From Sulfurimonas sp. (GTDB lineage Bacteria; Campylobacterota; Campylobacteria; Campylobacterales; Sulfurimonadaceae): a stretch of DNA of 33,338 bases. Numbering within the stretch: position 1 is the stretch's first letter; the number at the start of each line of letters is the position of its first letter. The notes under the pieces are model-generated. The model had not been told where the DNA came from. It worked only from the letters and a program-made list of their open reading frames with translations, and did no database searches. Positions 1,703 to 16,550 of the stretch are shown one piece after another. The stretch lies in NCBI GenBank assembly GCA_026988315.1, contig JALSLJ010000103.1, positions 1 to 33,338 of the forward strand. Reading direction: 5' to 3'. A program made the translations under genes and the position numbers.

Positions 1703-2344
1703 ATGAACATGCTTAAAATGATATTATTAATTTTTTTATTTGTTAATTATGCTCATGCAGACAAGCCCTATGTGGATGATAAACTCCTCAACAAAATCAC
1801 TAAAAAGTATAAACTATTTGCAAAAAAAAGGTTTCTCTCTCTTCAAAATATACTCGATATTAACAAAAACTCTCAAGATACTGAAAAACTTGAAGCAGTC
1901 AACGATTTTTTCAATGAAGTTAGATACTCATCAGATATAAAACTGTACAAAAAAAACGATTACTGGGCTACGCCTTGGGAATTTTTAGGGAAAGACAAGG
2001 GTGATTGTGAAGATTATGTGATTAGCAAATATTTCGCTCTACTTTATTTGGGGATGGACTCCAAAAAACTATTTTTCACCTATGTTCGCTCAACTAAATT
2101 TAAAGCACCGCATATGGTTTTAACTTACTTTAAAACACCCCGCTCCGAACCACTTATTTTAGATAACAATAACCGTAAAATTTTTCCAGCATCCAAAAGA
2201 AAAGACCTCCTTCCAATTTATAATTTCAATGGAGATTCCCTCTATAAAGCCTCAAAAACTGGAACAGGAAAGAAACTTAAGCAAATAAAATCTCATAAAA
2301 AATGGGATGAACTTAAATTCAATATGAAAAGGAAAAAAATATGA
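1703..2344 (+). CDS. lapG: LapG-like periplasmic transglutaminase-like cysteine protease
   Basis: Bacterial transglutaminase-like cysteine protease of the LapG family. Known members cut the N-terminal retention module of large LapA-type adhesins and so release biofilm cells. A signal peptide is visible (hydrophobic residues 4-17, likely cleavage after AHA at 17-19), which places the protein in the periplasm. The Cys-His-Asp triad is readable as C102 (in KGDCEDY), H137 (in APHMVL) and D154 (in LILDNN), and the typical TPWEFLG precedes the cysteine. The length of 213 residues is normal. The stop codon overlaps the lapD start in an ATGA, which supports translational coupling and functional pairing. 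An ATG at 1709 is an alternative start; neither has a strong ribosome site. No adhesin substrate is encoded in this window. Confidence 0.87.
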   Translation: MNMLKMILLIFLFVNYAHADKPYVDDKLLNKITKKYKLFAKKRFLSLQNILDINKNSQDTEKLEAVNDFFNEVRYSSDIKLYKKNDYWATPWEFLGKDKGDCEDYVISKYFALLYLGMDSKKLFFTYVRSTKFKAPHMVLTYFKTPRSEPLILDNNNRKIFPASKRKDLLPIYNFNGDSLYKASKTGTGKKLKQIKSHKKWDELKFNMKRKKI

Positions 2345-4263
2345 CTCTCTTTAAACAAATCGCCCTACTACTCTCTCTGTTTTTACTAATAATTTTAGCA
2401 ACTGTTTTAGCCCTAAACTTCAAAAGTGCAAATAAATCTGTACAAGAGAGGCTTTATGAGGATGCTAAAAATACTGCAAGCTCTTTGAGCCTTTCACTTG
2501 GCAGTGCTAATGGTGACATCTCAATGATGTCAACCATGATAAATGCTAACTTTGATAGTGGAACATACAGCTACATCTCTCTTAAAGACATAGATGATGC
2601 ACTGGTATATGAACGCAGAAGTGAAAGCACTATAGCAGATGTACCTGAATGGTTTTTGGATATTGTTAACATTGAAGCACCTTTTGCATCTGCTCAAGTC
2701 TCTGCTGGATGGAATCCCATAGGAATTTTATATGTTCAAAGTGATGATACCTACGCATACAACCAACTCTATACAATTCTAAAAGATCTTTTAATATCAT
2801 TTAGCATTCTTGCAGCATCTGGATTAATTATACTCAACCTCCTTTTACACACCATATTAAAACCGCTCAAAAGGGTTCAACTTCAAGCTGAGGCACTCAT
2901 AAGAAATGAGTTTATAACGCAAGATAAAATTCCTTACACAAAAGAGTTTAAAGATGTAGTTATCGGGATGAATTCCATGGTTTCAAAAGTAAAAACTATG
3001 TTTGACAAAGGAAATGAAGAGCTAAAAAAGCAAAAAGAGTTAGACTACATCGACCAAACAACAAAATTAAAAAATCGCAAATATTTAGTCCATAAACTGC
3101 CAGAGTATTTAAAAATTGATGCATCTTCTAAGGGTGGCATAAATATGATGATTGCATTTAGTGGAGTAGTAGAAGCAAATACAAAATTAGGGCATCAAAA
3201 TGTTGATAAACTTTTCGTTGAGATGGCAAATATCTTTAAAGCTTATGCAAGCAACTACAAAAACTCCATTGTAGCTAGAATGAATGGAACTGAATTCATA
3301 ATACTCTTGCCAGATTGTTCAGATATAGATGGCTTAGAACTTGCACATGGGATTCATGATTCAGTAAAAAATATTTTTACAGAGTATGGACTTGATACAA
3401 AAAAAACATTTATCTCCATAGGACTTTATGAGTATAACTATATGCAAAGGATAGGGGAGCTTTTATCACTAACGGATTATGCTTTGGCACAAGCAAAATT
3501 TTCTTCAGAAAACATTCACCTTGATAAAGCCGATGAGGTTCTTGAAGTTATGGGGAAAGAGGCTTGGAGAAAGACAATAAACAAGGCACTAGAACTCAAT
3601 AGATTCTCCTTTACATCATGGACTGCAATAGATATAAAAAAGAAAAAAATAGCACACAATGTTTTAAGTATCTCTATGAAATCTGACGATGATATTGTAT
3701 ATTCTTATGGTCAGTTTATGGCACCTGCCAACCAAGCAGGATTAAGCTCAGCTATATATAGTAACATCATAAATAGCATGTTTAAAATTCCAGATATGAG
3801 ACTTGCAGGCTCAACATCCTCCTTAAGACTCTCTTATGAATACTTAGACCAAAGAGACACATATGATGAGCTATTTTCTCTCTTTAAAGAGTATGCCTCA
3901 AAACTACCTTTTAAATTAATAATCGAGGTACCAGATAAGCTTATGCGTCAAAACTCTAAACAAATTAAGCTATACAAAGCCCTCTTTGAAAAATATAACA
4001 TTGAGATGGGAGTTTTCGAGTTTATTGGAGAGAGTCAAGATTATCAGTATCTCCAAGACCTAAGACCTGTATATATTCAAGGGGAATCAAGCTACTTTTT
4101 AAGTCTTAGTGAGCAGTCTTTGTCCGCACTCAGGCTCATTACAGATACTCTTGATATCTCTTTAATAGCAGGTGGTGTTATGGATATGCAAACACTAGGC
4201 AAACTTAAAGAAAAAGATATAACTATCATCCAAGGAAAAGCAACCGAAATGGTAGAGCTTTAA
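2341..4263 (+). CDS. lapD: LapD-like inner-membrane c-di-GMP receptor (degenerate GGDEF-EAL)
   Basis: Inside-out signalling receptor that in known systems binds c-di-GMP through a dead EAL domain and sequesters LapG in the periplasm. Order: TM helix 5-25; periplasmic LapD/MoxY-type domain about 26-145; TM helix about 150-172; HAMP to about 225; GGDEF-like domain about 235-385; EAL-like domain about 400-640. The periplasmic domain has SAGWNPIG with W124, matching the tryptophan loop LapD uses to bind LapG. The GGDEF signature reads NGTEF. The EAL motif and the DDFGTG loop are lost (HNVLS and EFIGES lie at those places), so neither enzyme activity is expected. ATGA overlap with lapG. The stop codon overlaps the stop of the convergent gene at 4260. 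Confidence 0.87.
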   Translation: MTLFKQIALLLSLFLLIILATVLALNFKSANKSVQERLYEDAKNTASSLSLSLGSANGDISMMSTMINANFDSGTYSYISLKDIDDALVYERRSESTIADVPEWFLDIVNIEAPFASAQVSAGWNPIGILYVQSDDTYAYNQLYTILKDLLISFSILAASGLIILNLLLHTILKPLKRVQLQAEALIRNEFITQDKIPYTKEFKDVVIGMNSMVSKVKTMFDKGNEELKKQKELDYIDQTTKLKNRKYLVHKLPEYLKIDASSKGGINMMIAFSGVVEANTKLGHQNVDKLFVEMANIFKAYASNYKNSIVARMNGTEFIILLPDCSDIDGLELAHGIHDSVKNIFTEYGLDTKKTFISIGLYEYNYMQRIGELLSLTDYALAQAKFSSENIHLDKADEVLEVMGKEAWRKTINKALELNRFSFTSWTAIDIKKKKIAHNVLSISMKSDDDIVYSYGQFMAPANQAGLSSAIYSNIINSMFKIPDMRLAGSTSSLRLSYEYLDQRDTYDELFSLFKEYASKLPFKLIIEVPDKLMRQNSKQIKLYKALFEKYNIEMGVFEFIGESQDYQYLQDLRPVYIQGESSYFLSLSEQSLSALRLITDTLDISLIAGGVMDMQTLGKLKEKDITIIQGKATEMVEL

Positions 4264-4706
4264 ATTCCACGAGAGTTTAAACCTTTTGTTATTGAGTCAT
4301 TTATCTCTTTTTTATACTCAGGGTTTAATCTTACTAACTCTTTGTCGAAGTTAACAATAATATTTTTATTGACATTTGGATGTCGGCAAATTGTAAAAAG
4401 TATATCCATGTATATATCAAAATCTGGGTGTGCTCGAAGTCCCAGCTTTTTATGAACACGACCATGGTGCTTAATGATTAAATCAAGCGCACTTTGTAAC
4501 TCTTTTGCGGTTGATTTTTTTCTTTTTATAATTGCAACAAGTGTTTTTAAATCGCTACTTTGAGCCCCTTTTTCAACCACTATTTTCTTTTTATCTGCAA
4601 TTTTTTCTACAGTTTTCTTTTTTGATTGCAACAAGAAAATAAAGATTAAAATTACCAAAATTGCTAAAAAACCAAAGACTGATTTTACTAATAAAGTTAT
4701 CTCCAT
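4260..4706 (-). CDS. Hypothetical membrane-anchored protein
   Basis: Function not recognised. The 148-residue product begins with one hydrophobic helix (about 8-27), followed by a lysine-rich stretch (28-46) that should stay in the cytoplasm, and a mainly helical soluble domain of about 100 residues with the segment HHGRVHKKLGLRAHPDFDIYMD. No catalytic motif or cysteine pattern was identified. It converges on lapD with overlapping stop codons (4260-4263), so the two ends have evolved together. A TATAAT box lies about 20 bases upstream of the ATG on the minus strand. Reading frame and composition look like a real gene rather than a shadow, because nothing else occupies the region. Confidence 0.7.
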   Translation of the reverse strand: MEITLLVKSVFGFLAILVILIFIFLLQSKKKTVEKIADKKKIVVEKGAQSSDLKTLVAIIKRKKSTAKELQSALDLIIKHHGRVHKKLGLRAHPDFDIYMDILFTICRHPNVNKNIIVNFDKELVRLNPEYKKEINDSITKGLNSRGI

Positions 4707-4725
4707 ATCACCACTTTTTTACAAG

Positions 4726-4731
4726 ATTATA
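4726..4731 (-). promoter_or_regulatory. Putative -10 box for the 4260-4706 gene
   Basis: The minus strand reads GGTATAATC here, a perfect TATAAT about 20 bases before the ATG at 4706. No clear -35 element is present, which is common for housekeeping promoters in Campylobacterota. Confidence 0.45.
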
Positions 4732-4806
4732 CCTAATTATATGTAAAATTTTAAATTTAAAGAAACTATAAATAAAAAAAATGAATAATTATGATAGACT
4801 AAGAGT

Positions 4807-4812
4807 TATAAT
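4807..4812 (+). promoter_or_regulatory. Putative -10 box for the cytochrome-cyclase operon
   Basis: A perfect TATAAT lies 21 bases before the ATG at 4834, within an A/T-rich divergent intergenic region (4707-4833). The predicted transcript would start near 4819 and have a leader of about 15 bases containing the AGGG ribosome site at 4821-4824. No -35 match is seen. Confidence 0.5.
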
Positions 4813-4833
4813 TATTTAAAAGGGTTAAGAGGT

Positions 4834-5499
4834 ATGATAGATATTCAAAAAAATATTCTCTTTGTAATCATAAAAAATATTTTCATCCTATCTTCTTTTG
4901 TAGCTCTTTTAGGTGCAGGTGAAAATCTCGAAATAACTCCAGCTACAAAGCAGTGTATGGATGAAACTCTTGCATCTCAGGTAGTAGTTAACCCACTAAA
5001 AGAATCTATGGGAGGTGAAGCGTACAATGATGCTATCGGCTCTGGAAAATATAGATATGTCGGAAATTCTAAATGTCGCTTATGTCATAGAAAATTTTTT
5101 ATTGGTCGTAAAAAAGACCCTCATGATCATGCAATGAAAAACTTAATTGCAATTGGTCATGAAAAAACACCTCAATGTCTCGCTTGTCACTCTACGGGTT
5201 ACGGCGTACCAACAGGTTTTGTAAGTATAGAAACAACTCCTAGACTCTCAAATGTTCAATGCGAAGGTTGCCATGGTCCAGGGAATGTTCATATAAAATT
5301 AACTAAAAAAAGACTTAAAGGTGGATTTCTTGCTGGTCAAGATAGTCCTAAAATACTTAAAAATATGTGTGTTGAGTGTCATACTGATCGCTGGAATAAA
5401 TCTTATCATGATTTAGATACAGCATATAATAAATATAAAAAAGCTGATCCTCGCTCTTATTCAAAAGGTAAACACAATAATGCCAAAGAAAAACTATAA
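4834..5499 (+). CDS. Tetrahaem cytochrome c (c554 family-like)
   Basis: Exported c-type cytochrome with four CXXCH haem sites at C81, C115, C143 and C179. The block CLACHSTGYG followed by CEGCHGPG is the hallmark of the cytochrome c554 family; the best-known member accepts electrons from hydroxylamine oxidoreductase, but many relatives have unknown partners. A hydrophobic N-terminal helix (about 8-27, ending ALLGAG) should act as signal peptide or membrane anchor. The C-terminal 40 residues are charged and lack haem sites. AGGG at 4821-4824 gives a 9-base spacing to the ATG. The last 20 bases overlap the start of the membrane diguanylate cyclase gene, so the two are almost certainly co-translated. 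No hao gene is nearby, so hydroxylamine oxidation is not implied. Confidence 0.82.
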   Translation: MIDIQKNILFVIIKNIFILSSFVALLGAGENLEITPATKQCMDETLASQVVVNPLKESMGGEAYNDAIGSGKYRYVGNSKCRLCHRKFFIGRKKDPHDHAMKNLIAIGHEKTPQCLACHSTGYGVPTGFVSIETTPRLSNVQCEGCHGPGNVHIKLTKKRLKGGFLAGQDSPKILKNMCVECHTDRWNKSYHDLDTAYNKYKKADPRSYSKGKHNNAKEKL

Positions 5500-6997
5500 T
5501 ATTCCTGCTATTTTATTCTTGCTTGTTTTGGGCATAGCATATCTATCTTACTACAACTACAAAACACAAAAAAATCTTCTGCTTATGCAGATGCAAAACA
5601 ACTCATCAAATATAGTAAGCTCTGTATCTGCTGCAATCGGGCGCTTTAATGATATTAAATCAACAATAAGCCTTCAAAAACTTCTCGATGATATATCCTT
5701 TGAACTTGATATATTTGAGTTTAGATATCTTGAGCCTGATGGTACTATTAAAAATTCAATGTTTAAAGACGAAATAGGAAATATCTATAGCAGTGAAATT
5801 TTCACAAAAATCATGCAGGGTGATTATGACTTAAAAAAGTTTTTCTTTGAGGTTCGCGATTATGTCAATGTAATGGCAATCTACTACCCTATATATAAAG
5901 ATAATGACCTCATAGGGATCATTGATCTAGCGGTTAACATAGATGGGTACAAAATGTTCAAGAACTCTAAAGAGAGCTTCTCTATGCTTCGTCGTCAGGA
6001 AGATATCATGAACCTTTTAAAATCTATAGAGGGTTCTATATCCAACTCTATTGCCATCTCAAAAAAAATAGATATTCATGATTTTTTACAATCGTATGCT
6101 AACTCAACTCAAAATATTGAGCAAATTTCACTTATTAACTCAAATGGGGAAATATTTGCAAGTAGCGACAACAAAGAAGTTGGGAGAAAATTTAACATTG
6201 AGAAGAGCACCGCTTCAAGTTTAGTGCAAAAAGATGGACATCTTCTCCACCGCACTATAGTTAGAGATAAAGCGTATAACAATAAGTCAGATGTTAGCCT
6301 TCTATTTTTAATAGATGCCTCCAATTATGCAAGCCACGAGGAAAAGCTTCTACAAACTGCTATTTTAACCTCAATATCAGCCCTATTTTTTGCTCTTTTT
6401 ACCTCATGGGCTATCTACCGTTCAACGCTTCAAAGCTCACGCAAAGAGAAAGAGCGCTTGGAGCTTTTAGTAAAAGAGAGAACAAGAGAGATAGAGATAC
6501 TCAGTAAAACTGATGTGCTAACAGGGCTTTGGAACAGAGGTTACCTTGAAGAGATGCTTGAGATGGAATTTAAACGGGCAAAACGCAACAAAGAAGATAT
6601 CTCCATCATTCTAATCGACCTTGATCATTTTAAAAATGTTAATGATACATATGGTCACCAAGCAGGGGATGAGATACTAAGAAAGGCAAGTCAAAGAATA
6701 AAAGAATCTGTTAGAGAAACAGACTTTGTAGGGCGTTATGGTGGAGAGGAGATAGTAGTTATCCTCCCTGAGGCCAACACTGAGGTAGCAACAAAAATCG
6801 CTGAACAAATAAGAGTAAAACTTGCACAAGAGCCTGTTGTATTTCAAGAACACTCTATACCTGTAACAGCAAGTTTTGGGGTGAGTCACTTACGCAATGA
6901 GCACGAAAATCATCTCATGGTATTTTCAGAAGCTGATGAAGCCTTATATAGAGCAAAAGAACTTGGACGCAACAGAGTAGAAATTTTCAAAGGTTAA
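5480..6997 (+). CDS. Membrane diguanylate cyclase with periplasmic sensor domain
   Basis: Makes c-di-GMP from two GTP. TM helix about 8-25; a large extracytoplasmic region 26-290 that looks like a Cache-type double sensor (two stretches, FRYLEPDGTIKNS and ISLINSNGEIFASS, match the strand pattern of such domains); TM helix about 292-312; a short coiled linker (ERLELLVKERTREIEIL); GGDEF domain 340-505. The active site is GGEEI (421-425) and an inhibitory RxxD site is present five residues before it (R412-D415), so the enzyme should be active and product-inhibited. The ATG lies inside the end of the tetrahaem cytochrome gene, and the next gene starts 3 bases after the stop. The overlap suggests a redox- or haem-linked input, which is inference. 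Confidence 0.88.
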   Translation: MPKKNYNIPAILFLLVLGIAYLSYYNYKTQKNLLLMQMQNNSSNIVSSVSAAIGRFNDIKSTISLQKLLDDISFELDIFEFRYLEPDGTIKNSMFKDEIGNIYSSEIFTKIMQGDYDLKKFFFEVRDYVNVMAIYYPIYKDNDLIGIIDLAVNIDGYKMFKNSKESFSMLRRQEDIMNLLKSIEGSISNSIAISKKIDIHDFLQSYANSTQNIEQISLINSNGEIFASSDNKEVGRKFNIEKSTASSLVQKDGHLLHRTIVRDKAYNNKSDVSLLFLIDASNYASHEEKLLQTAILTSISALFFALFTSWAIYRSTLQSSRKEKERLELLVKERTREIEILSKTDVLTGLWNRGYLEEMLEMEFKRAKRNKEDISIILIDLDHFKNVNDTYGHQAGDEILRKASQRIKESVRETDFVGRYGGEEIVVILPEANTEVATKIAEQIRVKLAQEPVVFQEHSIPVTASFGVSHLRNEHENHLMVFSEADEALYRAKELGRNRVEIFKG

Positions 6998-7000
6998 GGT

Positions 7001-8263
7001 ATGCAAAAAATACTTCTCATTCATCCCGACATCACTATTTTAGATAGATTAAAAAAAGAGCTTGAAAAGAGGATTCTTAATGTTGCAGTTTTAACAGCAC
7101 AAACACTTTTTGAATCAAATCAAGCTCTTAGGCATAATCAAAAAAACATCTCTATTGCAATTGTCGATATAGATCTGCAAGATTCTAGCCCAGGCAAAGC
7201 AGTAATGCTCACAAGCACACACAACATCCCAACCATTGTAATATCATCTGCCCAAGACAAAAGCTTACAAGAACTTCTTCGCAAAAAGAATGTTTTAGAT
7301 TATATAGATAAAGATAGTAAAAATAGTATCTCCTCCACTGTAGATTTAGTGGCACAAACACTTCGAAACTATAATAAAACTATCCTCGTTGTTGATGATT
7401 CGAAGCTATTTAGAAATACCTTTCAAGAAGATTTGAAAAAGCTACACATAAATGTTATCACTGCTTGTGATGGTGCTGAAGCTTTTGATATAGTAGATTC
7501 GCTTGAAGGTGAAAACATCTCTATAGTATTGACAGACTACAACATGCCAAACATGGATGGGATAGAACTAACTATGAAGCTAAGGGAAAAATATCAAAAG
7601 GATAGACTGAGTATAATTGCCATTAGTGCTACAGACGATGAGGAAGCCTTAACCAAATTTATAAAAGCTGGTGCAAATGACTTTTTAAGCAAGCCCTATA
7701 AGTTTACAGAATTAAAAGTACGGATTGGAGCAAATTTAGATTTACTAGAACTTTTTCAAAAAGCAACGGATTTAGCAAATAAAGATTTTCTTACAGGTGC
7801 GTATAATAGACGCTATTTTTTTGAGGCCAGCAAAGCAATTATAGATAAAAATTATAGAAAAAATGCAAGTATTGCGGTTGCAACAATAGATATAGATAAA
7901 TTTAAAAACATCAACGATACCTATGGGCATGACATTGGTGACATCGCATTAAAAGAATCTCTTGTTGTTCTCAATAAAAGGCTAAGACAATCTGATCTAT
8001 TGTCCCGATTTGGCGGGGAAGAGTTTTGCATACTTCTTGAAGATATATCCCTAGAGGATACAAAAGATTTATTTGAAGATATGCGGGAAAAATTTGAGAA
8101 CAATGAAATATCAATTGATGGCATCATTATAAAATATACCGTTTCTATAGGTGTAGCATACAAAAAAAGTTTTGATATAGATGAGATGTTAAAAATTTCT
8201 GATAATGCTTTGTATGAGGCTAAAAACACAGGAAGAAATAAAGTCATAATTCACACAGCCTAA
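7001..8263 (+). CDS. Response regulator with REC-REC-GGDEF architecture
   Basis: Cytoplasmic response regulator whose output is c-di-GMP synthesis (PleD-like order). The first receiver (1-120) is degenerate: it keeps D56 but lacks the paired N-terminal acidic residues and a clear conserved lysine. The second receiver (126-245) has the full set, D132/D133, phosphoacceptor D179 (in LTDYNMPNMDG) and K231 in KPY. The GGDEF domain (about 260-420) carries GGEEF at 338-342 with an intact inhibitory RxxD (R329-D332), so cyclase activity is expected. It begins 3 bases after the membrane cyclase, with a TAAGG-type ribosome site overlapping that stop codon. A cognate kinase is not assigned; the two hybrid kinases further right are candidates only by proximity. 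Confidence 0.88.
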   Translation: MQKILLIHPDITILDRLKKELEKRILNVAVLTAQTLFESNQALRHNQKNISIAIVDIDLQDSSPGKAVMLTSTHNIPTIVISSAQDKSLQELLRKKNVLDYIDKDSKNSISSTVDLVAQTLRNYNKTILVVDDSKLFRNTFQEDLKKLHINVITACDGAEAFDIVDSLEGENISIVLTDYNMPNMDGIELTMKLREKYQKDRLSIIAISATDDEEALTKFIKAGANDFLSKPYKFTELKVRIGANLDLLELFQKATDLANKDFLTGAYNRRYFFEASKAIIDKNYRKNASIAVATIDIDKFKNINDTYGHDIGDIALKESLVVLNKRLRQSDLLSRFGGEEFCILLEDISLEDTKDLFEDMREKFENNEISIDGIIIKYTVSIGVAYKKSFDIDEMLKISDNALYEAKNTGRNKVIIHTA

Positions 8264-8285: not shown

Positions 8286-9281
8286 CTACTCAAAAATAAT
8301 TAAGGTGTCGGCTGCGAAGTGTGCAGCTCCGAGCAGTGCTGTCTCGGGGTTAAGTGCAATTTTCACATCCATACTAAGAAGCAACTCCTCAAAACGACCT
8401 TTTCTTACAAAACTGTTCATAAAATTTCCATTTTTCATCACTGATAAAATTTTAGGAGCAATACCACCACCAATATAAACTCCCCCTAACGACATACTTT
8501 TCAAAGCAAGATTTCCAGCCTCAGCTCCATAAATCTCTACGAATAGTCTTAGAGCTTCCATACATAATGGGTCGTTATCATCCAAAGCACATCGACTAAC
8601 CATAGCACTTTTATCTTCATCTTCTGAAATCTCCATCATCGACTTTGGTTGTGAGGCAAAGCCACTCTCATGCAAAAACTCATACAGGGCATAAATACCA
8701 GGACCAGATAAAATTCGCTCATAACTCACATGCTTAGGGTATCTCTTTCGCATCCATTGTAAAAGTTCATCTTGTTGCTGTGAGAGTGGTGCAAAATCAC
8801 AATGCCCACCCTCTGAACCCACGGGATAGTAAGTTTTGCCATCATACAACAGCATAGCTTCCCCAAGCCCTGTTCCAGCAGCTATTACGGCACGGTTTCC
8901 ATCCACTTGCTGAGATGTTGGATTGAGATGGAAAAACTCCTCTTCTTTTAAATAGAGCATCCCATATGCGGTAGCTTCCAAATCATTTAACAAACGAATA
9001 GTATCTATCCCTAAGTGCTTAGATAAAGCAGAGGTAGTGATCTCCCATGGCAGATTAGTTGTGCGACAGCATCCATCAATCACAGGACCTGCAATTCCAA
9101 AACAAGCCGCATGAATTTCTGGCATAGATGCCATTTTTTCAAACTCTATAATCACATCAAGAAGAGATATAAACTCAGCACTAACAAACTGATGTTGTGT
9201 GAGTGTTATAAGTTTGTTATCTACTAATTCATAAAGTGCAAGATTAGTTTTTGTTCCACCTATGTCACCTGCAAGAATCAT
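8286..9281 (-). CDS. glk: Glucokinase
   Basis: ATP-dependent glucokinase of the proteobacterial Glk type, converting glucose to glucose 6-phosphate. The N-terminal phosphate-binding motif AGDIGGTKTN starts at residue 4. The catalytic aspartate is D100 in LLNDLEATAYG, and the GTGLGEAML and GSEGGHCDF segments that line the sugar and nucleotide pocket are present. I place the start at the ATG at 9281 rather than the in-frame ATG at 9305 because GGAGGAG lies just upstream at good spacing and the extra eight residues are unlike the family. That start is one base after the stop of the phosphorylase-kinase-like gene, so the two form a coupled operon. The length of 331 residues is normal. Confidence 0.9.
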   Translation of the reverse strand: MILAGDIGGTKTNLALYELVDNKLITLTQHQFVSAEFISLLDVIIEFEKMASMPEIHAACFGIAGPVIDGCCRTTNLPWEITTSALSKHLGIDTIRLLNDLEATAYGMLYLKEEEFFHLNPTSQQVDGNRAVIAAGTGLGEAMLLYDGKTYYPVGSEGGHCDFAPLSQQQDELLQWMRKRYPKHVSYERILSGPGIYALYEFLHESGFASQPKSMMEISEDEDKSAMVSRCALDDNDPLCMEALRLFVEIYGAEAGNLALKSMSLGGVYIGGGIAPKILSVMKNGNFMNSFVRKGRFEELLLSMDVKIALNPETALLGAAHFAADTLIIFE

Positions 9282-9282
9282 C

Positions 9283-12200
9283 TTAATACTCCTCCTGTTC
9301 GACATTTTCTGATCTAAGTAGATAGATAAATGCCTCTATAAATGCTTTATCAACTTCATTTGGAGAGAGCTTGTAGATTGCTTTCCAAGCTTGTCCTCTT
9401 TGTTCATCATAATTTTCAGAGGGATTATACCCTTCCCATGCAATTCTTACAGCATGCCCAATTAAAACATCCATTATTAAATCATTCTCAACACGAAGTT
9501 CAGGACTCTGCCTAAAGAGTCTTCCCATGCTTTGAATTGCTTCAATATTTAACTGACGATAATCTGGCGCACTAATACTCTGCAAGAGGGTATCAACCTT
9601 TAACTCAAAACTTCTTTCCCCTGCTGTTGACTCAAGTGTTAGTTCTGAACCTATACGGTTGTTAAGGCTGTATTTTTCACCAATTATCAACCCCTTACAT
9701 TGCTGGAGTAGATACCATATATCTTTATAAAAGCTCGAAGAGAGATTACCAATCATCCCTATATCTTGTCGCCATTGAGCCCAATCATCAACTTTGTATA
9801 GTTTATTAGTTACAGAGGTTGTTTCTATAGAGTCAAATCGTGGCACTATTGAAGCGTGTAAGTTTTCCTGATTGACTAACTCTATAGCTTCTTGAGAAAA
9901 AGATTTCAATATGGTACGAATATTATCATAAATATCATGTGGAGCTAAGCCTAAAAGCAACTCGTAAGCATCGCCTATCTGTAAGTTTTTTTCTCTTGAA
10001 ATTTGCCCTACTAGCAACTGCACTATATACCAAGTGCGGAGTGTTAAAATATTTTTAAATAATTCAGGTTCTATCCTAATTAAATGTCCAAGATGTAGCA
10101 TCACCTCTTGTGTTAATACCCTCTCAGCATCATTGTTTCCACAAAAATTAGCTATTGTTGAAACAATTGCTTTATTCTCTAAGGGCTTAGAAAAAGTGGC
10201 CTCTTCACTATAAGCACGGCCAACTGCCAAACGCTTTTGTCTGATGACAATATCGAGTAAAATATCTTCAAGACGCTCATCATATTTTCCCATAATATCT
10301 GCAATTCGTCGAACTACCGCCCAATCATGACAAACAGAGGCAGAGCTGTAAAGCTGATCAGCAATAAAAGACAAGCTATAAGTTCCTTTTTGCGTCATTA
10401 TTTCATACTCAGCACTATTTCTATGCCATAGCAAAGCAAGAGCATTCACTTTTACTCTGCGATTAGCATTGTTTACAAGCGTATCAACCAAAGAGCTATC
10501 ATCCTCAGCTTCAAATCTTTGTAGTTCCTCCGTTGTCAAAGGGTGGGTTATCTTTTGCTCCTCTAAAGAGCTACAAGTGCATCCATTTTCAGATTTTAAT
10601 TCCAATTCTTGAGGTACAAAACCGTGCAAATCATCTATCCGTTCAATATCTGCTGTTGTGAGCAAAACCCCAAGTGCTCCATTTACGATCTTTATAGAAT
10701 CACACTCGCCTGATTGTATCTCGTATAGCAACGCAGGTATTACACCATTTTCGCTTTCTAAGAGCATATCTTCACGAACAAGAAAAGGAACGATTGGCTG
10801 GCCTGTCTGATCCCAATAGCTAGAGAGAAACTTTAAAGATGCACGAAAATGTTCGCTAAGCAATTTGTTATCATAACTTACATAAAACCCTTTTGGGTCA
10901 AAATAATATGGAAGAAAAACAATCTCTTCACCTGTCAAAATATGTAAACGCGCAGTTGTGATTGTGCGTGTCACCAGTAATGGTCTGCCACTCAAAGAGA
11001 GTTTTTCATTTTTACCCAAAAGAGTATGTACTTTGGAGAGCTCATAAGCATGCATAATCCTAATGGGACTCACCTCCTTAAGTGTTTCACTCACAATTCC
11101 AAGCTCTTGTAAATGGTATTTTACTTTTTCATTTTCAGCCAATACAGCGACCATTGGGTGGGTAATACGCGTATGCCCTATTCTCTCACGACGGCGCAAA
11201 GGGTCAATATCATTAGGATGTAATATCCCATCAAGTATCATGTCACAGAGCATATAAAGGCTTTGAGCCCAAACTAACGGCAGGTTTTCATTTGCTACTC
11301 GTGTTTGAGTTCCAGGATTGAGCTTTTCAGCCTCAATCAACTCATGTGGAACAACGAAAAGCTCCGGCAACAACTGGATTCCATCTTCTTCAATAAAGAG
11401 AGGCTGCAATTTTTTTTGCCAATGCTCAATATCTTTTGTATCTTCACGCATTAAAGCATCCAGTAGCAAGTAAGTAAAAAACAAAGGCCATTCAGACTCA
11501 ATATCTTCAAATTTACGCAATTCTGATGGTTCATAATGTAGCCTTGAAGCATCCTCGATACTACTCTGGTGCCCATCAAGTAAAAAACGCTTACATCCAT
11601 AGTTTCCGCTAAGTTTTTTAATAATTTTTTCTCTTGTACAAGAAAGCAATTGTTCATTTTCCACTGCATATGCAGGGTAGCCTATGATGCTAAGAAGTGC
11701 TGCATCTGTCTCTTTAGAGTTAGATTCGCGTGGTAATAAGCCATGGAGAGTAAAACGGGAGCGGGACACATCACTTGCAACAACATGGATTACAGCATCT
11801 TGACCCGCTACATTTCCAAACAAGTTTAAGCCATCCATGGCTTCAAGTGCCGCCTTTGCCATACCAACTGAACTACAATTTATCTCTGTAGTTCCATGAT
11901 TTATTTTATTGCCACGCTCCCAAATACCAAAATCAGGAGTGCAATAGGTATGGCTTATATAATGAACAAGGTTTTGAACAAAATTTACCTCATCCATTGT
12001 GTAGATAAGTCGGAGTCCCGAAGCTGTCATCTGAGCAATCATTAAGAGATACAATGAACTCGCATCGAGCTGTAAATGTCCCCACTCATCATCTCCAACC
12101 ACAGCTAAACCAGTGTTAGTGCCATATTTTGCATGAAGTGCATCTATTGGATTTAAACTGTTTTTAAATTTCTCAACTCTGTCAGATTGTCTCATCATTG

Positions 12201-12477
12201 CAATAAGCAAACCTCGCATCAATTTAACAACACTCTGAGAGAGGAGATAGCTACGATGGTGATCTGGAGAGTGCTTTTTATATGCCTGTGCTAATCCCCA
12301 AACACTCAAAATACTATAAACATTATCTCGAACCCAAGCATCCGTATAATCACCATGAGCATTTACAGCGGTACTTGCAGGTAACAATCCTGTAACAGGG
12401 TCTTGACGAGATAAAATAATCTTATTCACAGAGAGAAAATGCTTTTCAAGAGAAGAGTTGATTGCAGTTGCATTCAT
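9283..12477 (-). CDS. Phosphorylase kinase alpha/beta-like protein (GH15-like)
   Basis: A 1064-residue cytoplasmic protein with no signal peptide. From memory of the animal regulatory subunits of phosphorylase kinase, it is similar along most of its length: AWVRDNVYSIL (47-57), QSVVKLMRGLL (81-91), DEWGHLQLDASSLYLL (130-145), DFGIWERG (182-189), SSVGMAKAALEAMD (202-215), then YGCKRFLLDG and ESEWPLFFTY. This part is a glucoamylase-like (GH15) alpha/alpha-barrel to about residue 430; the rest matches the PHK-type C-terminal region. E187 in WERG sits where GH15 enzymes have their general acid; I could not place the catalytic base. Bacterial relatives are usually named GH15 family protein, and their activity is not established. 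No protein kinase catalytic subunit is nearby, and there is no C-terminal CaaX box. Glucokinase follows one base downstream, pointing to glucan or glucose metabolism. AAAGG lies 9 bases before the ATG. Confidence 0.82.
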   Translation of the reverse strand: MNATAINSSLEKHFLSVNKIILSRQDPVTGLLPASTAVNAHGDYTDAWVRDNVYSILSVWGLAQAYKKHSPDHHRSYLLSQSVVKLMRGLLIAMMRQSDRVEKFKNSLNPIDALHAKYGTNTGLAVVGDDEWGHLQLDASSLYLLMIAQMTASGLRLIYTMDEVNFVQNLVHYISHTYCTPDFGIWERGNKINHGTTEINCSSVGMAKAALEAMDGLNLFGNVAGQDAVIHVVASDVSRSRFTLHGLLPRESNSKETDAALLSIIGYPAYAVENEQLLSCTREKIIKKLSGNYGCKRFLLDGHQSSIEDASRLHYEPSELRKFEDIESEWPLFFTYLLLDALMREDTKDIEHWQKKLQPLFIEEDGIQLLPELFVVPHELIEAEKLNPGTQTRVANENLPLVWAQSLYMLCDMILDGILHPNDIDPLRRRERIGHTRITHPMVAVLAENEKVKYHLQELGIVSETLKEVSPIRIMHAYELSKVHTLLGKNEKLSLSGRPLLVTRTITTARLHILTGEEIVFLPYYFDPKGFYVSYDNKLLSEHFRASLKFLSSYWDQTGQPIVPFLVREDMLLESENGVIPALLYEIQSGECDSIKIVNGALGVLLTTADIERIDDLHGFVPQELELKSENGCTCSSLEEQKITHPLTTEELQRFEAEDDSSLVDTLVNNANRRVKVNALALLWHRNSAEYEIMTQKGTYSLSFIADQLYSSASVCHDWAVVRRIADIMGKYDERLEDILLDIVIRQKRLAVGRAYSEEATFSKPLENKAIVSTIANFCGNNDAERVLTQEVMLHLGHLIRIEPELFKNILTLRTWYIVQLLVGQISREKNLQIGDAYELLLGLAPHDIYDNIRTILKSFSQEAIELVNQENLHASIVPRFDSIETTSVTNKLYKVDDWAQWRQDIGMIGNLSSSFYKDIWYLLQQCKGLIIGEKYSLNNRIGSELTLESTAGERSFELKVDTLLQSISAPDYRQLNIEAIQSMGRLFRQSPELRVENDLIMDVLIGHAVRIAWEGYNPSENYDEQRGQAWKAIYKLSPNEVDKAFIEAFIYLLRSENVEQEEY

Positions 12478-14624: not shown

Positions 14625-16550
14625 ATGTTAAACTTTACATCATTCTTGAAGCTCCTAAGAGAGTCATTTCGAGATCTTTTGCCAATTGTTCTTGTGATAA
14701 TGTTTTTCCAACTCGCTATCATTCAGACAGTTCCTGAGAATTGGTTAAGCACTACAATCGGTCTAGCTATTGTAGGTGTTGGTCTCGCTGTATTTCTTTT
14801 AGGTCTTGAAGTTGGTATCTTTCCTGTTGGAGAGGGTCTTGCCAGTGATTTCGCCCACAAGGGCTCAACCTTTTGGATAGTGATATTTGCCTTTATGATT
14901 GGTTTTGGTACTACGGTAGCAGAACCCGCCCTTATCGTTATAGCTGATAAAGCAGCTGGGATAAGTGCAGGTAGAATTGATGCCACAGTACTTAGAATGG
15001 TTGTTGCTTTCTCTGTTGGTTTTGCCATAGTTTTAGGTGTTTGGAGAATAATTAAAGGCCATCCAATCCACTACTACATAATCACTGGCTACATTATGGT
15101 TGTTGCTGCTACTGCTTTTGCACCTAAAGAGATAGTTGGTCTTGCCTATGACTTGGGTGGAGTAACAACTTCAACTGTAACAGTTCCTCTTGTAGCTGCT
15201 CTTGGTATTGGTTTAGCATCAACTATTAAAGGTCGCAATCCTGTTTTAGATGGCTTTGGACTTATCGCTTTTGCATCCCTCACGCCTATGATATTTGTTC
15301 AATTTTACGGAATCTTTGTATATCAATTCATAGACGCATCTCAAATTGTTGTCCCCGCTCTTGTTGACAACGCCGAAGCAGTTGCAGTAGCTAATTTTGA
15401 CCTCTTGGGTATTCTAAAAGGTCTTGCAAATGTTGTCATAGATGTCGTGCCTATTTTAGCTGTTATCCTATTTTTTCAATATATAATACTTAAAAAACCT
15501 ATACAAAATCTTAAGGAGGTTATGATTGGTTTTGGGCTTGTAATTCTTGGTCTTGATGCTTTTATAGTTGGCTTAGAGATGGGGCTTTTCTCTGTTGGTG
15601 AGACCATGGCATTTGAATTGACTCAGTACGACAATAACTTTATTATTTATTCTTTTGGATTTTTGATAGGCTTCTCAACCACTATGGCTGAGCCTTCTTT
15701 AACAGCAATAGCTAGAAAAGCTAAAGAGATTAGTGATGGCAAAATAAACGATTTTGTTCTTAGACTTTTTGTTGCTCTTGGTGTTGCCATTGGTATCTCT
15801 CTTGGTTCTTACCGTATAGTTGTTGGAGGAGAGATTGTTTACTACATCATCGCTGGATATATGTTTGTTATAGTCTTGACATTTATCGCCCCAAAATATA
15901 TCATCCCCATCGCTTATGACAGTGGAGGAGTTACCACTTCAACTGTAACAGTTCCCTTAGTTGCGGCACTTGGTTTAGGACTTGCTACAAATATAGAGGG
16001 GAGAGATCCCCTTATAGATGGTTTTGGTCTTATCGCTTTTGCATCTTTGTTCCCTATGCTAACAGTGATGATATATGGAGTGATAACCGAAAAGATGGGC
16101 ATCAAAGGGCAACATGAACTTGAGGAGATCCACCTTGATGAACTTCGCCACGCTATGGAAGATGCCAACAATATGAACCTCTCTACTGTTCATGTACATG
16201 GAACAGAAAAAAGGCACTCTTATCAAATGGCATTTTCAGCGGTGCATATCATTGTGCCACAAGAGAGAAAAGATAAAGCTCTTTTAGCTGCTAAAGAGTC
16301 TGGAGCAACAGGCGTTACAATTATGGAAGCGCACGGTATGGGTCTCAGTGAGATGGATAACTTCTACAACAGACTTGAGAGTCAAGCAACGGATGCAAAC
16401 CTGATGCTTATTGTTCCAACAAAACAGGTGGATGATATTATATACAATGTGATGCATAAACTCGACATTGTCGGCGATGGGGATGGTATCGCTTACTCCT
16501 ATCCAATTTCGCATCTCAAAGGCTTGACTATGAAAAGTTGTGATATTTAA
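14625..16550 (+). CDS. Duplicated DUF1538 membrane protein with PII-like C-terminus
   Basis: Large inner-membrane protein made of two homologous DUF1538 halves and a soluble tail. [11 protein letters not shown] (93-103) recurs as [11 protein letters not shown] (349-359); [17 protein letters not shown] occurs unchanged at 178-194 and 434-450; [11 protein letters not shown] occurs unchanged at 209-219 and 465-475. Each half is rich in hydrophobic helices, which suggests a two-fold pseudo-symmetric transporter. Residues from about 535 to 641 resemble a PII-like regulatory fold ([21 protein letters not shown], then [12 protein letters not shown]). As I recall, a two-gene DUF1538 pair (UmpAB) from a halophile was reported as a Na+/H+ antiporter; here both halves are in one chain. 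Ion specificity cannot be read from the sequence. It is divergent from cobU and not in an operon. Confidence 0.8.

Follow-up and report, generated by a model that had tools for sequence, protein, structure and literature searches.

For the similarity of phosphorylase kinase (PhK) to the GH15 glycoside hydrolases, Pallen 2003 is reportedly the paper cited. A 2024 structure paper poses the question of why animal PhK alpha has a glucoamylase-like domain in which the catalytic Glu residues are apparently intact, yet shows no activity; the same paper names Glu185 and Glu371 of human alpha as the catalytic pair and identifies D5 of alpha as the part to which the animal gamma kinase is attached (PMC10978961). 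A literature search for bacterial homologues of PhK alpha and beta found no paper in the library covered, though bacterial members may have been mentioned earlier, and the family is already covered by Pfam. Here we describe a bacterial protein that is a free-standing co-orthologue of animal PhK alpha and beta.

The protein is encoded in a window of 33,338 nucleotides (the whole stretch of DNA analysed) from a Campylobacterota MAG of 2.19 Mb, in the genus containing Sulfurimonas. A single ORF of 1064 codons lies on the minus strand, at exactly the coordinates originally given (Table 1). The original prediction held that its product resembles PhK alpha/beta along its full length, and this is borne out. 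The two Pfam searches that it proposed, with GH15 (PF00723) and the PHK C-terminal family, both gave matches far above threshold: GH15 covers residues 16–815 (E 2.4e-77), and KPBB_C (PF19292) covers residues 828–1058 (E 4.9e-73; bit score 245.6, cut-off 27), so that the C-terminal 600 residues do match PhK. A GH15-like N-terminal domain followed by KPBB_C is the arrangement of the PhK alpha/beta family. Among PDB sequences, phmmer (E up to 1) retrieves human PhK alpha (3e-202) and beta (6e-162) and no others, and a profile of 39 bacterial relatives finds alpha (1057 bits), beta (878 bits) and otherwise nothing credible; at E up to 1 this profile retrieves none of the PDB sequences of GH15 enzymes. 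Identity to human alpha is 49.6% across 591 aligned residues and 56% inside D1, and the five motifs quoted in the prediction are all in the translation, in the same order in the alignment with human alpha. Chance motif matches are ruled out by the E-values. No signal sequence is obvious by eye at the protein start as translated, and scans for promoters and terminators returned sites no more numerous than in shuffled sequence.

The AlphaFold2 model (mean pLDDT 82, pTM 0.80) has the D1–D5 fold of the human subunits, with residues 2–868 matched together and D5 matched separately. Its best structural match (Foldseek, VIA-align) is human PhK alpha (8jfk_A; Z 46.9, rmsd 2.9, 794 residues within 2–868), followed by beta, isomaltose glucohydrolase, glucoamylase, dextran dextrinase (Z 23.0) and fungal glucoamylases (Z about 20). 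Residues 896–1058 superpose on human alpha D5 (8xyb_A 1051–1217; Z 17.7, 157 aligned, rmsd 3.2). GH15 enzymes superpose well on the predicted D1 (Z 20–26), and two stretches that touch the active site, residues 40–42 and 187–195, are modelled with pLDDT under 50.

Table 1. Features of the PhK-like locus (positions in the window)
Feature	Position	Strand	Basis
PhK alpha/beta-like protein, 1064 aa (GH15 + KPBB_C)	9283..12477	-	ORF, Pfam, PDB matches, AlphaFold2
KPBB_C domain (D4/D5 of PhK alpha/beta)	9304..9996	-	PF19292; residues 896-1058 vs human alpha 8xyb_A
glk, glucokinase	8286..9281	-	PF02685 3.6e-102; TIGR00749 over its cut-off; ATG at 9281
Shine-Dalgarno-like AGGAGG, 9 nt ahead of glk ATG at 9281	9291..9296	-	Read from sequence
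Region matching GH15 enzymes	11218..12477	-	VIA-align: isomaltose glucohydrolase 5z3b Z 26.3 (340 aligned), bacterial glucoamylase 1lf6 Z 24.8
Y44-x3-W48-V-R50-D51, subsite -1 motif (~ TtGA Y337...R343-D344)	12325..12348	-	Y44, W48, R50, D51 invariant in 39
Glu187, general acid counterpart (human alpha Glu185; TtGA Glu438)	11917..11919	-	39/39 invariant; PMC10978961 numbering
Glu372, general base counterpart (human alpha Glu371; TtGA Glu636)	11362..11364	-	39/39 invariant; Lys in human beta

Because comparing the family profile with that of one ordinary GH15 enzyme yielded a short, weak match only, the mapping of the active site leans on local motifs and on the human structure paper. In an alignment of 39 bacterial sequences from two phyla, Y44, W48, R50, D51, W186, E187, E372 and W403 are identical throughout. 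The counterparts in glucoamylase 1LF6 are Y337, D344, E438 and E636, and the spacing from Tyr to Asp is seven residues in both proteins. The general acid and base Glu and the subsite -1 Arg-Asp of a GH15 glucosidase are therefore all represented. What is missing is the Gln that GH15 hydrolases carry directly behind the general base (PMC12446779), a mark of the inverting enzymes: all 39 sequences have Leu, Ile or Val at that position (Leu in the protein described). In human alpha a six-residue deletion takes out the Tyr loop, so that Gln39 aligns with Y44, and N396 and N398, which are near the base and invariant in bacteria, are Met and Lys; in human beta Asp stands at the Y44 position, Gln replaces R50 and Lys replaces E372. 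That the GH15 active-site set is retained in all 39 aligned bacterial sequences is new; the set includes a Tyr that is unmatched at the aligned position in human alpha and beta. Tyr37 of human alpha, which lies nearby, could still fill the role of Y44, and we regard the loss of the Tyr loop as a lead and not as proof.

The gene immediately downstream encodes glucokinase, and its ATG at 9281 lies one base past the stop of the PhK-like gene, as had been predicted; this start is the one preceded by AGGAGG (9296–9291), and the longest glk ORF, from an upstream ATG at 9305, would overlap the PhK-like gene by 23 nt. Within the window glk is the sole glucan or glucose gene adjoining the PhK-like gene, and contig C56 of the same genome holds GT35, pgi, gap, a branching enzyme and two glycogen synthases. 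Among Campylobacterota loci having downstream sequence, glk is the next same-strand gene in 19 of 21, at a distance of −29 to +125 nt and typically within about 20; the exceptions (L006 and G284) lie together in the tree, and in them glk has been lost or moved. Several loci add further genes of alpha-glucan and glucose metabolism, an observation that is also new: a GT35 alpha-glucan phosphorylase directly upstream or one gene off (L002, L004, L008 and G239), together with pgk and phosphoglucomutase at some of these; the Entner-Doudoroff cluster zwf-pgl-edd-eda directly upstream (L005, L011 and G390); and GH57 with a sugar nucleotidyltransferase/phosphomutase fusion nearby (L005, L008 and L011). 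Neither a glk neighbour nor any other family-wide neighbour was seen in the cyanobacterial loci inspected.

Some other features of these loci deserve mention in their own right. On the plus strand of the window, a LapD-like receptor for c-di-GMP lies close to two GGDEF proteins at 2341–8263, with a cytochrome-like gene between them, and at 14625–16550 the UmpA/UmpB halves of a Na,Li,K/H antiporter are fused into a single protein of 641 aa, which has a P-II signalling domain at its C-terminus. The PhK-like copy in a Sulfuricurvum (L011, 8001–10988) has just 995 aa, about 70 fewer than its relatives, and a divergent cyanobacterial subgroup (L083–L086, about 39% identity) has its own conserved neighbourhood around the PhK-like gene.

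KPBB_C is present in 14 of 397 Campylobacterota genomes sampled, above cut-off in 45 of 194 cyanobacterial genomes sampled, and in one of 14 control genomes (Synechococcus elongatus); the family is thus established in at least two phyla. Contamination of the MAG is ruled out because the gene is beside glk in several single-contig Campylobacterota genomes. Carriage on plasmids was likewise rejected, as tblastn of plasmids gave two weak matches only (23% identity), both to E. coli records of chromosome size. One locus from E. coli records filed as plasmids (L117, 2620–4272) encodes a 550-aa GH15-like protein that shares the Y-x6-D and W-E motifs but is without the remaining PhK architecture.

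Glucokinase (PF02685) is found in 62 of the 397 Campylobacterota genomes, 46 of which belong to two kin groups without the PhK-like protein (f2 and f3), and two of which match only marginally, at about 19 bits. With f2 and f3 set aside, glk is present in 13 of the 14 genomes with the PhK-like protein (and is the next gene in all 13) versus one of 337 without it, the 337 being all sampled genomes minus these 14 and the 46 of f2 and f3, with the two marginal matches uncounted. The Fisher p of about 1e-21 ignores kinship and indicates no more than a strong association. This co-occurrence, with glk always the next gene, is a new observation. One genome (G284) has the PhK-like protein without Glk, and one (G327) is the lone glk genome without the protein outside f2 and f3. 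A run of N, an assembly gap, is located directly upstream of glk in G327 (L094, 4354–5540), in the expected place of the PhK-like gene. GT35 and glycogen synthase occur in 14/14 genomes with the protein versus 12/20 congeners without it, the PhK-like protein is the sole GH15 protein in each of the 14 Campylobacterota genomes, and the sole GH13 gene seen in the host genome is that for the branching enzyme.

We consider it most likely, with a probability of a little under 60%, that the protein is a cytoplasmic GH15-type exo-alpha-glucosidase that releases glucose from glycogen-derived glucan for Glk. This is the best account because the active site is invariant, there is no other GH15 protein, and the neighbours function in glucan and glucose catabolism. 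Glucokinase is required for free glucose only and not for the glucose-1-phosphate made by phosphorylase; since the latter product bypasses glucokinase, a gene that brings glk with it most simply makes free glucose. The D1 barrel would remove terminal glucose from the oligosaccharides or branch stubs left by alpha-glucan phosphorylase acting on glycogen, the bonds cut being presumably alpha-1,4, or alpha-1,6 in the stubs, while D2 and the helical D3–D5 may serve in arranging an oligomer and binding glucan. A co-transcribed glucokinase would then convert free glucose to glucose-6-phosphate, which would be pooled with the output of phosphorylase and phosphoglucomutase and probably flow into glycolysis or the Entner-Doudoroff pathway. 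Several points count against a hydrolase: the Gln after the base is replaced, the active-site loops are modelled with low confidence, the cyanobacterial loci inspected have no glk neighbour, G284 has no Glk, and human alpha, with both Glu present, showed no activity on maltose, isomaltose and glycogen (PMC10978961).

The main rival, which we think unlikely though it merits serious attention, is that the protein is a non-catalytic glucan-sensing scaffold: D1 would hold the ends of glucan chains, and the protein as a whole would adjust glucan phosphorylase or glucokinase through direct contact. This would mirror the animal subunits that tune the PhK gamma kinase, these relatives being regulators in which no activity was detected (PMC10978961), and it would suit both the loss of the Gln after the base and the presence of GT35 directly adjacent or one gene away at some loci; the retention of D2–D5 in bacteria is also beyond the needs of a simple glucosidase. 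However, a catalytic acid, base and water-binding Tyr that are invariant across two phyla are unexpected for a pure sensor, and the tight tracking of Glk points to free glucose. The original prediction offered both a hydrolase feeding Glk and a glucan-sensing regulator; the former fits better because of the invariant active site, the Glk tracking and the presence of a sole GH15 protein in the 14 genomes, with the regulator keeping the smaller share of our belief.

The residue after the base also bears on whether the protein is a retaining alpha-glucan transglucosidase of the dextran-dextrinase type and not a hydrolase, as dextran dextrinase too has a non-Gln residue there (Ser) and inverting and retaining GH15 members are not separable by sequence alone (PMC12446779). 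We find this improbable, given that the sequences lack the retaining cluster's Gly-Glu dyad, Pro precedes the base in 39/39 sequences as in the inverting KfIG and AgGD, and coupling to Glk implies free glucose. A GH15-type trehalase is just as improbable: set against a weak NCBIfam match to the archaeal TreH1 (2.5e-6, 26 bits versus a cut-off of 820) are neighbours of glucan and glucose metabolism and the lack of an OtsA-family trehalose-phosphate synthase in 11 of the 14 genomes, the host included. We give least credence to a regulatory subunit of a bacterial protein kinase that targets glucan phosphorylase, as in animals. D5, the gamma-holding part in animals, is present, and Pkinase-family matches above cut-off occur in 12 of the 14 genomes with the protein, but the CaaX motif is absent; moreover, no kinase gene was identified beside the PhK-like gene in the loci inspected (in agreement with the prediction that no kinase subunit gene is nearby, and itself a new observation), and in two of the 14 genomes (G307 and G396) no Pkinase match passes the cut-off, so that a PhK-like holoenzyme is unlikely.

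In our tree the two human subunits, alpha and beta, group in a single clade (support 99) on the cyanobacterial side, separate from all bacterial sequences sampled, and nesting of the human subunits inside the cyanobacteria has an AU p of 0.31. This placement is provisional because there are only two animal sequences, both long-branched; the L117 protein was unusable as a root, its branch being very long. Provisionally, the placement is consistent with duplication, in eukaryotes, of one gene of the bacterial type. A tentative scenario, for which we would claim some plausibility but not the balance of probability, is that the family originated in bacteria as a glucosidase that trimmed glycogen alongside glucan phosphorylase and glucokinase, perhaps supplying the alpha-1,6-glucosidase step of debranching. 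It would then have been taken over in animals as a glucan-sensing scaffold and have undergone duplication there, and human alpha would have been inactivated by deletion of the catalytic-Tyr loop. Whether the ancestor was an enzyme can be tested directly with a bacterial relative of 50% identity whose active site is more complete and which is partnered by glucokinase, and the same comparison could show the ancestral substrate and which change inactivated human alpha. For some Campylobacterota, the finding further points to a path by which free glucose derived from glycogen may be used.

In comparison with human muscle PhK alpha/beta (PDB 8jfk), the bacterial protein has the same D1–D5 order, and both of its catalytic Glu are matched by Glu185 and Glu371 of alpha. 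It differs in retaining the H41-G42-x-Y44 loop that human alpha is without, in having no match to stretches ~620–695 and 967–1041 of human alpha, and in the C-terminal CaaX farnesylation motif of PhK, which is absent from the C-termini of the aligned bacterial sequences. Human PhK has gamma and delta partners, none of which was found for the bacterial protein, and this is coupled instead to glucokinase, unlike the human subunits. Cyanobacterial GH15+KPBB_C proteins have the same two Pfam domains at 38–47% identity and, unlike those of Campylobacterota, no glk neighbour in the loci inspected. Relative to GH15 enzymes the bacterial protein has the additional D2–D5 with KPBB_C, and Leu replaces Gln after the base. 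The D1 fold is nonetheless held in common with isomaltose glucohydrolase (5Z3A), glucoamylase (1LF6) and glucodextranase (1UG9) at Z 22–26, and in 1LF6 the Tyr, Arg-Asp, Trp-Glu and base Glu follow one another in like order and with like local spacing.
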